From Microcaldota archaeon (GTDB taxonomy: Archaea; Micrarchaeota; Micrarchaeia; Micrarchaeales; CABMGC01), in assembly GCA_021801765.1 (NCBI GenBank), contig JAJYXO010000042.1:1-32233 (forward strand): 32,233 bases of DNA. Direction: 5' to 3'. Both the position numbers and the translations under genes were made by a program. Position 1 is the stretch's first letter. Each line of letters begins with the position of its first letter. This document shows positions 2,645-8,416 of this stretch, one piece after another. The notes beneath the pieces are model-generated. The model was not told the origin of the DNA. It did no database searches and saw only the letters and a list, made by a program, of their open reading frames with translations.

Positions 2645-3370
2645 CTACGCGTTGTATCCCTTCTCCTCTACTTCTGTTATCAACTCCTTGCCTCCCTCCT
2701 TTATTATCACTCCGTCCTTCATTACGTGTATGAACTGCGGCTCCATATAGTTCAGTATCCTGCTGTAATGTGTTATCAGCAGTATGCCCATCTCGTTCTT
2801 GCTCCGGAGCTGATTTATGCCTTCCGCAACAACCCTCACCGCATCTATGTCTAGCCCGGAATCCGGTTCGTCAAGTATCGCTACCTTCGGCTTTAGGATC
2901 GCCATCTGGAGTATCTCTATCTTCTTTTTCTCCCCTCCTGAAAACCCGAAGTTTAACGATCTGCCTATAAGGTCTTCTTTTATAGAGAGAGAGCTGACGC
3001 TGTTCTTCACCTCCGCCATGAAGTCCTTAAACGAGAGTCTGTCCCCGTATATCGATCCCTTTGCAGCATTCAGAAAGCTCATAAAGCCCAGACCTTCGAC
3101 CTCTACGGGATTCTGAAACTGCAGGAAGATTCCGAGCTTTGCCCTTTCATCAACCTTCATCCCCAATATGCTCTTCCCATCTACTAATATGTCTCCTCCA
3201 GTCGCCTTAAGGTCAGGCTGGCCCATTATTGCCTTGGCAAGCGTGGTCTTTCCTGATCCATTGGGGCCCATGACAACATGGAGCTCCCCTTTTCTGATCT
3301 TCAGGCTTACTCCCTTTACTATCTCCTTCTCTTCTGCAGATATGTGCAAATCTTTTATTTCCAATTCCAC
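2645..3370 (-). CDS. sufC: SUF Fe-S assembly ATPase SufC
   Basis: ABC-type soluble ATPase of the SufBCD scaffold that assembles Fe-S clusters. At 241 residues it has the usual length. Walker A is GPNGSGKTT (35-43), the Q-loop lies in FLQFQNPVEVEG (about 82-93), the signature is FSGGEKKK (143-150), and Walker B is VAILDEPDSGLD (163-174). The GEKKK form of the signature is typical of SufC. The start is a GTG (3368-3370) directly abutting the TGA stop of sufD (3371-3373), which implies translational coupling. It lies between sufD and sufS in a single leftward operon. Confidence 0.95.
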   Translation of the reverse strand: MELEIKDLHISAEEKEIVKGVSLKIRKGELHVVMGPNGSGKTTLAKAIMGQPDLKATGGDILVDGKSILGMKVDERAKLGIFLQFQNPVEVEGLGFMSFLNAAKGSIYGDRLSFKDFMAEVKNSVSSLSIKEDLIGRSLNFGFSGGEKKKIEILQMAILKPKVAILDEPDSGLDIDAVRVVAEGINQLRSKNEMGILLITHYSRILNYMEPQFIHVMKDGVIIKEGGKELITEVEEKGYNA

Positions 3371-4600
3371 TCAATCACCATTATTCATTGCTTCTGACCA
3401 GATTCCCCTAGAGGTCAGGCTGCTCACATCGCCGAATGTGCTCTTGCCTATCCTGCCCAACACGAGTGAAGAGGCAATCTCCCTTATTCTCGGGTCGCCT
3501 ATGCCAGACAGATACCTGGATAGAAACGCAGACACAAACATCTCCCTAGCCTGCTCCTCCTTTACTCCTCGCGCTCCCATATAGAATATCGCATCCTTGT
3601 CCATAGGCGCTGTTGCAGCGCTGTGCGTTGCGGATACCTCGTCGCTATAATCTATCGACATGTCTGGAAGTGCGTCAATGTGCGCAGTCTGGCTAAGAAG
3701 TATCCCCCTCTCCGTTATCCTTGACTTTGCCCCCTTAGTCCATTTGTCTACTTTTGCATATCCTTTAAAGACGCAATTCGAATTTCCGTCAAGCACTGCG
3801 CCCGACTCCAGCATCGCATTGCTCTTCTGGCTTGCATTCGTTATAAACGTATTTATATCAAATCTTTGTTCTGAAGCACCGTATACTACCTCACTTACGC
3901 GGACATCGCTGCCTATTCCTGAAGCGCTCACTTTCCCTATGGCTTTAGTCAGCGCAGCGCCGTTGTACGCAGCGTTTATCCTCAGGCTTGAGCTATTGCC
4001 GGCATATCCTTTGAAGAGGTTAACTAAATTGGCGTTTTTGTTCTCACAGTGCACCTGGTTTATCTCTACCTTGGAGCTTTCTGCAGCCGCCTCGTGCATT
4101 ACAGATACCAGCGACCTGCGGTCTGATGTAGAAAAATAAAATTCCGAAAGGCTTATGGCCGAGGAGTCTGCGTCTACAAACACCTGCGAGAAATCGCTCC
4201 CATCGTTTACAAAGAGCGCATTTATCTTAACCGCCTCTCCTGTGGCTCTGATCAGCAGCGCCCTTTCAGAATATGCATTTGAGAACGCGGCAAGTTTTCC
4301 TTCACTGCTCTTGTATTGTTTGCGTCCAAGCACTTCTGCTATATCCTGCATCCTTTCTATCCTGACATTACTGCTCTTGTTCCTGATGAAATCTCCGAAG
4401 AGAACAACGTCGAAGTTAATGCTGAGGCTCTTCTCCACATGCTCTAAGAATTTCCTCTTGTCAGAGGCCCCCGCCGCTTCAGTCTTCTCCAAAGGCACGC
4501 TTACGCTGTACTTTTTGTATAACTCCTCTGTCTCATAAGGCATGGACATATAATGACGCATAGCGTCATTTCTAAACTCTTCGTAATTCAAAACCTGCAC
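3371..4600 (-). CDS. sufD: SUF Fe-S assembly scaffold protein SufD
   Basis: Beta-helix scaffold protein, partner of SufB in the SufBC2D complex. The 409-residue product has a poorly conserved N-terminal half and the recognisable SufB/SufD C-terminal core: MLESGAVLDGNSNC, a YSDEVSATHSAATAP segment (the family H-S-A-A-T histidine region) and FYMGARGVKEEQAREMFVSAF. The start is a GTG (4598-4600), nine bases after the sufB stop. It is more diverged than SufB, as is normal for SufD. It could only be confused with a second SufB paralogue; the position after a clear SufB and before SufC supports SufD. Confidence 0.88.
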   Translation of the reverse strand: MQVLNYEEFRNDAMRHYMSMPYETEELYKKYSVSVPLEKTEAAGASDKRKFLEHVEKSLSINFDVVLFGDFIRNKSSNVRIERMQDIAEVLGRKQYKSSEGKLAAFSNAYSERALLIRATGEAVKINALFVNDGSDFSQVFVDADSSAISLSEFYFSTSDRRSLVSVMHEAAAESSKVEINQVHCENKNANLVNLFKGYAGNSSSLRINAAYNGAALTKAIGKVSASGIGSDVRVSEVVYGASEQRFDINTFITNASQKSNAMLESGAVLDGNSNCVFKGYAKVDKWTKGAKSRITERGILLSQTAHIDALPDMSIDYSDEVSATHSAATAPMDKDAIFYMGARGVKEEQAREMFVSAFLSRYLSGIGDPRIREIASSLVLGRIGKSTFGDVSSLTSRGIWSEAMNNGD

Positions 4601-4609
4601 CTTTATCCG

Positions 4610-6022
4610 TCAGCCTACTCCGCCGCTAGTATCAAGCTTTATAAGCCTCTTCAGCTCCAGCGAGTACTCCATAGGCAGTACTTTTGTAAGATCCTCTATG
4701 AATCCAAGGACAATCATCGCCACTGCGTCATCCTCAGATATTCCCCTGGACATCAGGTAGAATATCTCTTCGCTGCTTATCTTGCCTATTTTTGCTTCGT
4801 GGCTTATCACAGCATCATTTCTGTTTATCTGGTTGTAGGGATAGGTGTTGGTTTTTGCGAATCCGTCCAGAAGCAGCGCGTCGCATGAAACATGGGCCTT
4901 CACATCCGCAGCGTTCTTTGCCACATGCATAAGCCCTCTAAATGTCGTTACCCCGCTTCCTTTCGAAATGCTCTTCGATATAATCTTCGATGTGGTCTTA
5001 GGCGCAAGGTGGTATATTTTCCCTCCGGAGTCCTGCACCTGCCCTTCACCTGCTATCGCAATTGAAAGAACCTCTCCCTTTGCCTTAGGTCCCATCAGGA
5101 ATATGCTTGGATATTTCATATTTATCTTGCTTCCTATGTTGGCATCTATCCACTCTACACTCGCGCCTTCTGCAGCATGCGCCCTCTGCGTTACAAGGTT
5201 ATATACGTTCTTTGACCAGTTCTGTATAGTGACGTACCTTATGTGCGCATTCTTCTCTGCAACAAGCTCCACAACAGCAGAGTGCAGCGAATTAGACGCA
5301 TAGACTGGGGCAGTGCAGCCTTCTATGTAAGTGACATCAGAGCCTTCATCTGCGATTATCAGCGTGCGTTCAAACTGCCCTGACTTTTCTGCGTTTATCC
5401 TGAAGTAAGCGTTAAGCGGCATAGGCACTTTCACCCCTTTGGGTATATATATGAAAGAACCTCCTGACCATGTGGCTGTGTTCAGCGCTGCAAACTTATT
5501 GTCTGTAGGGGGTATAATCCTTCCAAAGTATTTCTTGACTAGCTCTGGATACTTTTTAACTGCAGTATCTGTGTCAACGAAGATTATTCCAAGCCTGTCG
5601 AGCTCTTCGTTAACGTGGGAGTAGACTACCGACGAATCGAACTGAGCCTCGGCTCCTGCAAAGAACTTCCTCTCTGCCTCAGGCACGCCGAGCTTGTCAA
5701 AAGTCCTCTTTATGTCCTCTGGAACATCATCCCAGCTCTTCGCCTCCTTTCCCTTAGGGCTTCTGTAGTAATAAACGTCATCAAAGTTGATGTCACTGAG
5801 GTCAGCCCCCCACCTTGGCATGGGCTTGCTCTCGAATACCCTGTATGCCGCCAGCCTCTTTTCCAGCATCCACTCCGGCTCATTCTTTATCTTGGATATC
5901 TTGCGCACCACATCCTCAGAAAGGCCCTTTTCGAAATCCTCGTACTCTACCTTTTCGCTGAACCCGTACCTCTCAACATATTCATTCGCATTTACTAGGG
6001 ATTCCACCTGTTTGTCTACCAT
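4610..6022 (-). CDS. sufB: SUF Fe-S assembly scaffold protein SufB
   Basis: Central scaffold of the SUF system on which the nascent Fe-S cluster is built. The 470-residue product shows strong family blocks: an N-terminal YGFSEKVEYEDFEKGLSE region, KFAALNTATWSGGSFIYIPK, VTYIEGCTAPVYASNSLHSA, and VISHEAKIGKISSEEIFYLM near the C-terminus. The length matches complete SufB without intein or truncation. The ATG at 6020-6022 lies 15 bases after the stop of the upstream HTH regulator, so it is the second gene of the operon. Confidence 0.96.
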   Translation of the reverse strand: MVDKQVESLVNANEYVERYGFSEKVEYEDFEKGLSEDVVRKISKIKNEPEWMLEKRLAAYRVFESKPMPRWGADLSDINFDDVYYYRSPKGKEAKSWDDVPEDIKRTFDKLGVPEAERKFFAGAEAQFDSSVVYSHVNEELDRLGIIFVDTDTAVKKYPELVKKYFGRIIPPTDNKFAALNTATWSGGSFIYIPKGVKVPMPLNAYFRINAEKSGQFERTLIIADEGSDVTYIEGCTAPVYASNSLHSAVVELVAEKNAHIRYVTIQNWSKNVYNLVTQRAHAAEGASVEWIDANIGSKINMKYPSIFLMGPKAKGEVLSIAIAGEGQVQDSGGKIYHLAPKTTSKIISKSISKGSGVTTFRGLMHVAKNAADVKAHVSCDALLLDGFAKTNTYPYNQINRNDAVISHEAKIGKISSEEIFYLMSRGISEDDAVAMIVLGFIEDLTKVLPMEYSLELKRLIKLDTSGGVG

Positions 6023-6037
6023 TATTTACACCAAAAT

Positions 6038-6358
6038 TCATTTTGTAGATGCGAAACTGCATCCGAAGTTGTTCACTGTCGTGCATATCTTGCATATGCA
6101 TAAATTCACAGCACCTATCTTTCCAGAGGCTATCTCCTTGGCATAGGATTCAATAATTCCCCTGTCAAGCTTCGCTTCTATATCCTTGATTTTTACAGAG
6201 TACTTCTCCCTTATGTACTTGCTAACAGCAGCTTGGGTTATTCCGAGATAGCTGGATATCTCTTCTTCTTTTATATTGTATTTAGTCTTAAGTTCTTTAA
6301 TAAGCGCCAACCTTACTGCAGGTATCACTTCCTTTGCTGCTATCTCATATCCAAGCAT
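6038..6358 (-). CDS. HTH regulator with C-terminal cysteine cluster; candidate suf operon Fe-S sensor
   Basis: A 106-residue DNA-binding protein, first gene of the suf operon. Residues about 12-55 form a helix-turn-helix with a standard recognition segment (SSYLGITQAAVSKYIREKY). The family resembles the archaeal COG2522 regulators. The C-terminus carries four cysteines in a C-x-C-x2-C-x7-C pattern (Cys87, 89, 92, 100), suited to bind an Fe-S cluster or zinc. Position, 15 bases ahead of sufB and directly behind the operon promoter, suggests it senses Fe-S or iron status and autoregulates the suf genes, as IscR and SufR do in bacteria by unrelated folds. DNA binding is well supported; the metal and the regulatory sign are inference. 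Confidence 0.8.
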   Translation of the reverse strand: MLGYEIAAKEVIPAVRLALIKELKTKYNIKEEEISSYLGITQAAVSKYIREKYSVKIKDIEAKLDRGIIESYAKEIASGKIGAVNLCICKICTTVNNFGCSFASTK

Positions 6359-6399
6359 AAGACCACTAATATAACCCAGTTATAATTATCTTGGTAAAT

Positions 6400-6409
6400 G
6401 TTTATAAAC
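6400..6409 (-). promoter_or_regulatory. TATA box of suf operon overlapping a perfect palindrome
   Basis: On the minus strand an archaeal TATA element (TTTATAAA, 6401-6408) lies about 26 bases upstream of an expected transcription start near 6378. This would give a leader of about 20 bases before the regulator ATG at 6358. The TATA is embedded in the perfect 10-base palindrome GTTTATAAAC and is flanked by TTGG on both sides (6391-6394, 6411-6414). A repressor binding here would block TBP. TATA boxes are often partly palindromic, so operator function is only a suggestion. Confidence 0.5.
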
Positions 6410-6569: not shown

Positions 6570-6630
6570 GATTCATATGGATAGCTAATTCGGTGCAATG
6601 ACAATATTTCTGCATAGTAAATGTATATCT

Positions 6631-7500
6631 ATGATAAAATCCCAGTCCGCAATGGAGTACCTGATGACCTACGGATGGTCCATACTGGTTGTAGCAGTTG
6701 TCCTCGGCGCCCTCGCCTATCTTGGAGTCTTCAATCCCCTTTATTTCGCTCCGAAGGCAAACCCAGGAAGTTGCCAGGTCTTCCGGCCTAACGGCGCCGG
6801 AACTTCTTACGATATAAATTTGCTCGGGGTCTGTAATAATGAGATACCGCAGTTTGTTGGTAAATTCAATGGTTATGACAGTGCAATGTTAGCACAGAAT
6901 GCAATTCCGAATGCAATGTCTGCTATCACGATTACGCTATGGATCGATCCTTTTAATAGTTTATCTTCTTGGACGCTTCCTTTTACTGATGAGTGGACAC
7001 AGCAAATAGCCTGGGATGGTAGCAGCATAGCTGGCACTACTAATGGCGGTAACTGGGGTTATTCTCCAAAACTTCTTACTAATTCCTGGTATTTTGTTGC
7101 GCTTTCAGCGAATAATATCGGAGGAACGCTTTACGTTAATGGAGATGCAGTAAACACTTTGTCTGGCTCAATTGCATCTGAGAGTACTACTGTATATATA
7201 GGGGGCACAGGCGAAGCAGGAGGCGGAGGTTGCTGTGCATATGCTTTCGATGGATACATATCTAATGTACAAGTTTATAACGCATCTCTTGATCAGAGTT
7301 CAATAATCGCCCTATATCAGGAAGGGATAGGAGGAGCGCCTATAAATTTGCAGAGCCTCCAAGATTGGTGGCCGCTTAATGGAGATGTTAATGATTACTC
7401 GGGCAATTACCATGATGGCACTACTTATTCATATCCAAGCTCTTTAAATCAGAATGATCTGTATACGGATAGTTGGATAAACAGCTATAATCCTCCGTGA
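6631..7500 (+). CDS. Class III prepilin with LamG-like lectin domain (copy 1)
   Basis: Secreted, pilin-like protein of about 289 residues. It starts MIKSQSAMEYLMTYGW; the QSAMEYL motif is the archaeal class III signal (PF04021 type), cleaved before the Gln by a prepilin peptidase (EppA type). The hydrophobic assembly helix SILVVAVVLGALAYLGVF follows. Then comes a short Cys-containing linker (GSCQVFRPNGAGTSYDINLL...VCN). Next is a concanavalin-A/LamG-like beta-sandwich: ITITLWIDP, WYFVALSANNIGGTLYVNG, FDGYISNVQVYNASLDQSSI. It ends with a WWPLNGDVNDYSGN segment. This suggests a pilus or surface filament that displays a sugar-binding head. An upstream in-frame ATG at 6598 would add 11 residues. 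I prefer 6631 because copy 2 begins at the matching point. Confidence 0.82.
   Translation: MIKSQSAMEYLMTYGWSILVVAVVLGALAYLGVFNPLYFAPKANPGSCQVFRPNGAGTSYDINLLGVCNNEIPQFVGKFNGYDSAMLAQNAIPNAMSAITITLWIDPFNSLSSWTLPFTDEWTQQIAWDGSSIAGTTNGGNWGYSPKLLTNSWYFVALSANNIGGTLYVNGDAVNTLSGSIASESTTVYIGGTGEAGGGGCCAYAFDGYISNVQVYNASLDQSSIIALYQEGIGGAPINLQSLQDWWPLNGDVNDYSGNYHDGTTYSYPSSLNQNDLYTDSWINSYNPP
6637..6873 (+). repeat. Direct repeat: conserved pilin 5' module (unit 1; unit 2 at 7514-7750)
   Basis: About 237 bases encoding the signal motif, helix and Cys linker recur at 7514-7750. By hand count about 39 bases differ (roughly 83% identity), yet only about 5 of 79 codons change the residue (V/I, N/D, F/Y, G/A, K/R). 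Differences are therefore nearly all synonymous. The repeats are in the same orientation 877 bases apart and could support recombination or gene conversion. Confidence 0.85.
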
Positions 7501-7504
7501 TCTT

Positions 7505-8416
7505 ATGATTCACAAATCTCAATCAGCGATGGAGTACCTGATGACCTACGGCTGGTCTATACTGATTGTAGCTGTAGTCCTCGGCGCCCTCGCATATCTC
7601 GGAGTCTTCAATCCTCTTTACTTCGCTCCAAAGGCTAACCCCGGAAGCTGCCAGGTCTTCAGACCTAACGGCGCCGGAACTTCTTATGACATAAACCTGC
7701 TTGGAGTCTGCAACGATGAAATACCCCAATACGTTGCCAGATTTAACGGACAAAATCCAGGAAGTGAAATCTATCTAGGCACAAGCCAGTACTTAAACCC
7801 AGGCGCTGGGAGTTTTACTATCTCAGGCTGGGTATATGCTATGGGATATGCATATCCAGACACGCGCTTCCCTATAGGCGGAGGTGGCATGGATGGCAGT
7901 GAGGGCTGGATACTTGAAAATGGATACAACTCCCAAGGGATAAACGTCAATTTTGGCGATGGAACATCTCAGGTATCTGGTACAATAGCATGCGATGATG
8001 GGTATCTTCCTGCAAATACGCTCGGTAAATGGACAAACATAGTTGTAGTGTTTAATCGAACATCTGGAGAAGCCTACGCCTTCATCAACGGAGCCAAACA
8101 ATCCGGATCCGTGAACATAGCTGCTGTGACAAACAGCGTAACAAACCCTTATGGCACATATCTTGGAGACAGTTGGGGCTGGAGGCTTTACGGATTTATG
8201 GCTAATATGCAATTCTACAATGCTTCTCTAGATTCTAACTCTGTCCAGGCGCTATACGCAGAAGGAATCGGAGGAGTACCTATAGACCTGCAGAACCTTG
8301 TAGGTTGGTGGCCGTTGAATGGCAACTCCAACGATTATTCCGGCAATGGAAATAACGGCCAACCCACCGAAATCAACTATACTGAAGGTTGGATAAGCAG
8401 CTATAATCCTCCTTAA
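7505..8416 (+). CDS. Class III prepilin with LamG-like lectin domain (copy 2)
   Basis: Tandem paralogue of the preceding gene, starting four bases after its stop; 303 residues. Same order: class III signal (HKSQSAMEYLMTYGW), assembly helix, Cys linker, LamG-like domain (FTISGWVYAMGYAYP, WTNIVVVFNRTSGEAYAFING, LYGFMANMQFYNASLD) and the C-terminal WWPLNGNSNDYSGN. The first ~80 residues are almost identical to copy 1 while the lectin region has diverged strongly in sequence and loops. The two products probably share one assembly platform but present different heads. The ligand is unknown; no other pilus assembly gene is in the window. Confidence 0.85.
   Translation: MIHKSQSAMEYLMTYGWSILIVAVVLGALAYLGVFNPLYFAPKANPGSCQVFRPNGAGTSYDINLLGVCNDEIPQYVARFNGQNPGSEIYLGTSQYLNPGAGSFTISGWVYAMGYAYPDTRFPIGGGGMDGSEGWILENGYNSQGINVNFGDGTSQVSGTIACDDGYLPANTLGKWTNIVVVFNRTSGEAYAFINGAKQSGSVNIAAVTNSVTNPYGTYLGDSWGWRLYGFMANMQFYNASLDSNSVQALYAEGIGGVPIDLQNLVGWWPLNGNSNDYSGNGNNGQPTEINYTEGWISSYNPP

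Follow-up and report, generated by a model that had tools for sequence, protein, structure and literature searches.

The suf operon of this archaeon, a member of the Micrarchaeota, is rather likely to be controlled by a Cro/C1-type repressor that is encoded by the first gene of the operon itself and that would read Fe-S or iron supply through three cysteines, an account that we have drawn from the comparison of genes and promoters among related genomes. In the window (the whole 32,233-nucleotide stretch of DNA analyzed), the genes lie on the minus strand in the order HTH-sufB-sufD-sufC-sufS, with successive gaps of 15, 9, 0, and 8 nt. The regulator gene is an open reading frame of 106 codons at positions 6038-6358, recognized as an HTH protein from its HTH_3 domain and an AlphaFold2 model. 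It is followed by sufB (4610-6022; TIGR01980, 689 bits against a cut-off of 346), a sufD-like gene with the SufBD core (3371-4600; PF01458, E = 2.5e-35, with TIGR01981 below its cut-off), sufC (2645-3370; TIGR01978, 302 bits against a cut-off of 213), and the cysteine desulfurase gene sufS (1386-2636; TIGR01979, 558 bits against a cut-off of 475). The initial annotation, which placed the HTH gene at the head of the operon and straight before sufB, is thus confirmed by the gene coordinates.

Matches to the regulator are encoded in 75 of 79 genomes of the same family, a set in which many genomes are incomplete MAGs and related genomes are not independent of each other. They fall into two groups, A and B. 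Group A comprises the window protein and its orthologues at 68 loci, and in 67 of these the gene lies directly before sufB; the exception, in genome G005, has both the gene and the operator described below, with sufB absent on its short contig. Group B is a paralogue that forms a clade of its own in the tree (support 0.96), lacks the cysteine motif, and stands directly 5′ of the glutamate dehydrogenase gene gdhA in all 23 loci examined (for example G000:C50:9235-9498, corresponding to L002 1453-3055, and 22 further loci). It is probably a dedicated gdhA regulator with the same fold as the suf regulator. Homologues without the cysteines and unlinked to suf, which the initial annotation had said would speak against its proposal, were found as this separate gdhA-linked clade only and not among the orthologues.

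The HTH of the regulator is a member of the Cro/C1 (XRE) superfamily. The Cro/C1-type HTH_3 domain (PF01381) is matched by 53 of the 57 family members, with a best E-value of 2.7e-9, and the window protein itself scores 22.4 bits against a cut-off of 23. The AlphaFold2 model, computed with 57 aligned sequences, is all-helical (pLDDT 91, pTM 0.84). Alignment and model together locate the recognition helix QAAVSKYI at residues 42-49 (6212-6235, minus strand), in which Q42, A43, S46, and K47 are invariant among the 67 aligned group A proteins. The C-terminal end of the regulator reads ...NLCICKICTTVNNFGCSFASTK, and its CICKIC-x7-C tail reproduces exactly the C-x-C-x2-C-x7-C pattern that had been reported for this small HTH protein. 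The four cysteines are, however, not equivalent. Their codons (C87, C89, C92, and C100) occupy 6059-6100 on the minus strand, and in the orthologue alignment C89, C92, and C100 are invariant in 67 of 67 sequences, whereas C87 is kept in 47 and replaced by Y, A, or L in the other 20. This rules out the four-cysteine motif as the ligand set, and the cluster proposed at the outset has to be reduced to three conserved ligand candidates. In the model, the last helix (residues 82-96) bears C87, C89, and C92, while C100 is located in the tail after it. The cysteines are the sole conserved sensory residues of the regulator in this alignment.

A close examination of the promoter identified two palindromes, of which the one first noticed is not the one conserved. 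The decamer GTTTATAAAC (6400-6409, minus strand), proposed originally as a palindrome lying over the TATA box, does exist, occurs once in the window (0.02 copies expected), and holds the TATA box TTTATAAA at 6401-6408. As an operator it can be dismissed, since only 2 of the 68 orthologous upstream regions contain it, so that the upstream conservation looked for is not found; the decamer is merely the TATA box of this genome. The proposed operator is a different palindrome at the transcription start, the dyad TATAAC-N3-GTTATA, matched exactly by TATAACCCAGTTATA on the plus strand at 6370-6384, which is 16 bp from GTTTATAAAC and inside the segment (6038-6409) singled out by the initial annotation. 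This dyad is exact in 67 of the 68 orthologous promoters and has one mismatch in the remaining one, while only 0.09% of shuffled upstream regions get to within one mismatch. Over all 79 genomes the exact dyad occurs at 112 sites, compared with 6 for a reversed control pattern. Its center lies a median of 27 nt downstream of the TATA center in the 68 promoters, and the usual archaeal transcription start is about 27 nt downstream of TATA. The dyad therefore covers the expected start site, a location that suggests repression. From the end of the dyad to the start codon the median distance is 11 nt, and in six loci the dyad touches the start codon.

The tie between regulator and dyad is supported by several comparisons in which the two can be followed separately. 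In a second family of the order, the genes are arranged as sufB-sufD-HTH-sufC-sufS, placing the regulator inside the operon, and in all eight such loci (L189, L191, L193, L195, L196, L197, L207, and L212) a single dyad is kept before sufB and nowhere else in the locus. Nine genomes (G015, G187, G188, G189, G191, G242, G243, G244, and G245) have sufB without the HTH gene, and none of their sufB upstream regions has the dyad, the best match showing at least three mismatches. The Fisher probability of this co-loss is about 1e-12, a naive value that ignores relatedness; the gene losses span five genera and probably reflect several separate events. Five further genomes (G201, G202, G249, G252, and G253) have the HTH gene and no exact dyad, with the dyad present at one to two mismatches. 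The group B paralogue, in which the cysteine cluster and the TATAAC-N3-GTTATA dyad are both absent, serves as a control that ties the dyad to the suf-linked protein. Through relocation, loss, and divergence, the dyad thus appears to follow the regulator.

In other Micrarchaeota families, 19 of the 25 best matches to the regulator adjoin sufC-sufB (10 loci), an IscS-type desulfurase gene (8 loci, named from sequence), or sufS (1 locus). Among these deeper relatives, the operator differs with the recognition helix. Where the helix reads TQxxVSK, the upstream dyad is TATAAC-N3-GTTATA within two mismatches in 9 of 13 cases; where it reads T or S, then P, E, or R, then AVSQ, the dyad is TTAAC-N4-GTTAA within one mismatch in 8 of 10; proteins with TQPAISQ are intermediate. 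The TTAAC-N4-GTTAA form precedes the regulator gene, mostly in regulator-iscS or regulator-sufCB operons (L273, L275, L276, L278, L279, L281, L282, and L284). Operator type therefore appears to track the recognition helix, although few clades are involved and a small number of evolutionary changes may underlie the covariation. Homologues that end in a C-terminal C-x2-C were also noticed next to suf genes in two further genomes, one from Woesearchaeota (L202 2094-2372) and one an unassigned MAG whose title reads bacterium (L201 4019-4360), and the suf linkage of the regulator may extend beyond Micrarchaeota.

The circuit seems wider than autoregulation, because second operators precede metal transporter genes. 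Of the 112 exact dyads, 45 are outside suf promoters. Of the 43 among these that we inspected, 18 lie before ZIP-like metal transporter genes, in 17 genomes from 9 genera; Pfam Zip is matched by 5 of 9 aligned members of this set (best E = 5.6e-9), and the profile of the set matches the solved structure 5tsa (E = 4e-7), which we take to be a ZIP transporter. The genome of the window has one second dyad, also before a ZIP-like gene (L072). The encoded protein falls short in the Pfam test for Zip, and Q stands where the HNxxEG motifs normally have histidine; this loss of the canonical metal-ligand histidines makes its substrate uncertain. Single dyads precede genes for an NRAMP transporter (L248, E = 2.8e-45) and an Fe/Mn-superoxide dismutase (L133), and two are near radical-SAM genes (L119 and L252). 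Roughly half of the sites outside suf are not followed by an iron-related gene. Some are inside genes (L122 and L258), near methyltransferase genes (L107, L108, L113, L116, and L123), or near Lrp-like genes (L109 and L117), and these are possibly chance sites or regulon members. In three genomes (L127, L128, and L129) an exact dyad is found near the same type of secreted or membrane protein (GYGTSSISL... WGTT...).

We propose the following mechanism. A dimer of the 106-residue protein would bind the 15-bp dyad, cover the transcription start, and shut out RNA polymerase, so repressing both the suf operon and the regulator's own gene. C89, C92, and C100 would hold an Fe-S cluster, or iron, as the signal of Fe-S supply. 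With adequate supply, the loaded protein would keep suf repressed, together with a metal importer (ZIP-like, sometimes NRAMP) in many species; on loss of the cluster, repression of suf, of the regulator gene, and often of the importer would be released. The operator, the linkage to suf, the co-loss, and the regulon emerge from the genome comparison itself, and repressor action is well supported. Fe-S or iron sensing is what the cysteines and the target genes lead us to infer, and the same grade applies to binding itself, dimerization, and the identity of the cluster. The direction of the response is suggested by analogy, being borrowed from the logic of IscR and SufR.

Zinc could just as well occupy the three cysteines, or these could serve as a thiol switch, and the rival readings that deserve most weight concern what is sensed. 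A metal-ion sensor, in which Zn(II) or Fe(II) binds the cysteines without an Fe-S cluster and both the importer and suf are controlled under iron or zinc starvation, is not the likely explanation but deserves serious attention. It would account for the second regulon member (ZIP-like in 17 genomes, NRAMP in one), and the C-x2-C-x7/8-C spacing is also compatible with zinc. A plain zinc sensor nonetheless fits poorly with a main target that is an Fe-S assembly operon in 67 of 68 loci, and iscS in deeper relatives. Because the target is almost everywhere the machinery of assembly itself, whether suf or iscS, we prefer the Fe-S reading to zinc, although the protein may also sense iron directly, with no cluster. 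A redox or thiol switch, by which peroxide or metal stress would oxidize the cysteines, free the repressor from DNA, and induce suf, we regard as improbable. The dyad at the Fe/Mn-superoxide dismutase gene in one genome and the absence of conserved sensory residues other than cysteines are in its favor; two cysteines usually suffice for such a switch, however, whereas three are invariant here, and the recurrent second target is metal transporters and not oxidant-defense genes.

Two other readings question the repressor itself and carry much less weight. Some Fe-S regulators work both ways, and the HTH protein might by that token activate suf instead of repressing it, but archaeal activators generally bind upstream of BRE/TATA, and a dyad over the expected start, 27 nt past TATA and in six loci reaching the start codon, makes activation very unlikely. 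We consider it slightly less credible still that the dyad serves another protein or an RNA hairpin and that the HTH gene is a passenger of the operon. Adjacency by itself cannot prove the identity of the binder; against this, gene and dyad are lost together in several genera, the dyad remains at the operon promoter when the HTH gene relocates, and half-site changes go with the recognition helix. A hairpin leader is rejected on the position of the dyad at the start site, which would leave only about half of it transcribed, and on the folding of the region, which as a single DNA strand was no better than that of shuffled sequences.

The suf repressor proposed here is distinct from the known bacterial regulators with the same task. 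Like IscR, the Rrf2-type regulator of bacteria, it is a small protein of DNA-binding type whose gene opens an operon for Fe-S assembly, and it has three conserved cysteines, here candidate ligands; some Micrarchaeota regulators lie directly 5′ of iscS. Unlike IscR, it is an all-helical Cro/C1-type protein with C-x2-C-x7/8-C cysteine spacing, and it operates at an archaeal TATA promoter with its putative operator at the start site. The Rrf2 domain PF02082 gave no match to the window protein at E <= 0.1 and is missing from the 25 commonest families matched by the 57 regulator members; no Rrf2/IscR protein scored above cut-off in the 79 family genomes, in a search whose control detected its target in 12 of 14 named genomes. 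IscR acts through a palindromic operator, whereas the corresponding control here is suggested by linkage and a dyad seen in genome comparison. SufR proteins are larger than 106 residues and of a different HTH class, and no SufR model appeared among the NCBIfam matches of the window protein at E <= 1. Membership in either family is thereby ruled out. The likeness to SufR of cyanobacteria and actinobacteria (eg, Rv1460), a repressor whose gene adjoins the suf operon or leads it (PMC6034842), is the position of the regulator gene as the first of that operon.

With Cro/C1 (XRE) repressors, the regulator shares the HTH_3 domain, a TQxxVSK-type recognition helix, and a dyad operator of about 15 bp; it differs from them in the cysteines borne by its C-terminal helix and tail, and a Foldseek search of the model against the PDB returned no solved structure at E <= 0.001. 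COG2522-type archaeal predicted regulators presumably have similar helices, with LGxTQAAVSxY and C-terminal cysteines, which we take as a lead only. Bathyarchaeota homologues (among L198-L213) have the LGxTQAAVSxY motif and cysteines near the C terminus, with more cysteines than the window regulator and no suf genes within ~4 kb.

The three-cysteine regulator and its palindrome point to an archaeal counterpart of IscR and SufR with a separate origin, and the view in the initial annotation of a compact archaeal suf circuit, analogous to those systems and not homologous with them, is borne out and reinforced by the linkage to suf and the conserved operator. More broadly, we hold it a little better than an even chance that a separately evolved family of Cro/C1 Fe-S-sensing repressors controls suf or isc and metal import across Micrarchaeota, and probably other DPANN, with a specificity that shifted at least once, between TATAAC-N3-GTTATA and TTAAC-N4-GTTAA, together with the recognition helix. 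The regulation of Fe-S cluster assembly in archaea is essentially undescribed, and our searches of the open-access literature turned up no regulator of suf or isc in archaea; the present analysis supplies a family of proteins, the sequence of their putative operator, and a set of genes predicted to form the regulon. The circuit would solve in another, unrelated way what IscR and SufR solve in bacteria, and it is kept by a DPANN symbiont whose genome is reduced and yet retains a dedicated regulator for Fe-S assembly. Candidatus Micrarchaeum harzensis is a cultured relative with public RNA-seq data (PMC8975820).

Two observations concern neighboring proteins. SufB of many Micrarchaeota has an in-frame, intein-like insert of ~350 residues at EG^CTAP, which starts with CLPA and ends with VHN (L191 and L302), and the SufB matches are also split in L190, L194, L195, L196, and L212. 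At 6598-8416 of the window there are two tandem genes with near-identical N termini that look like class III signals (KSQSAMEYLMTYGWSIL), and Pfam assigns a concanavalin-like/laminin G domain to the first of them; they are probably duplicated surface proteins or pilins.
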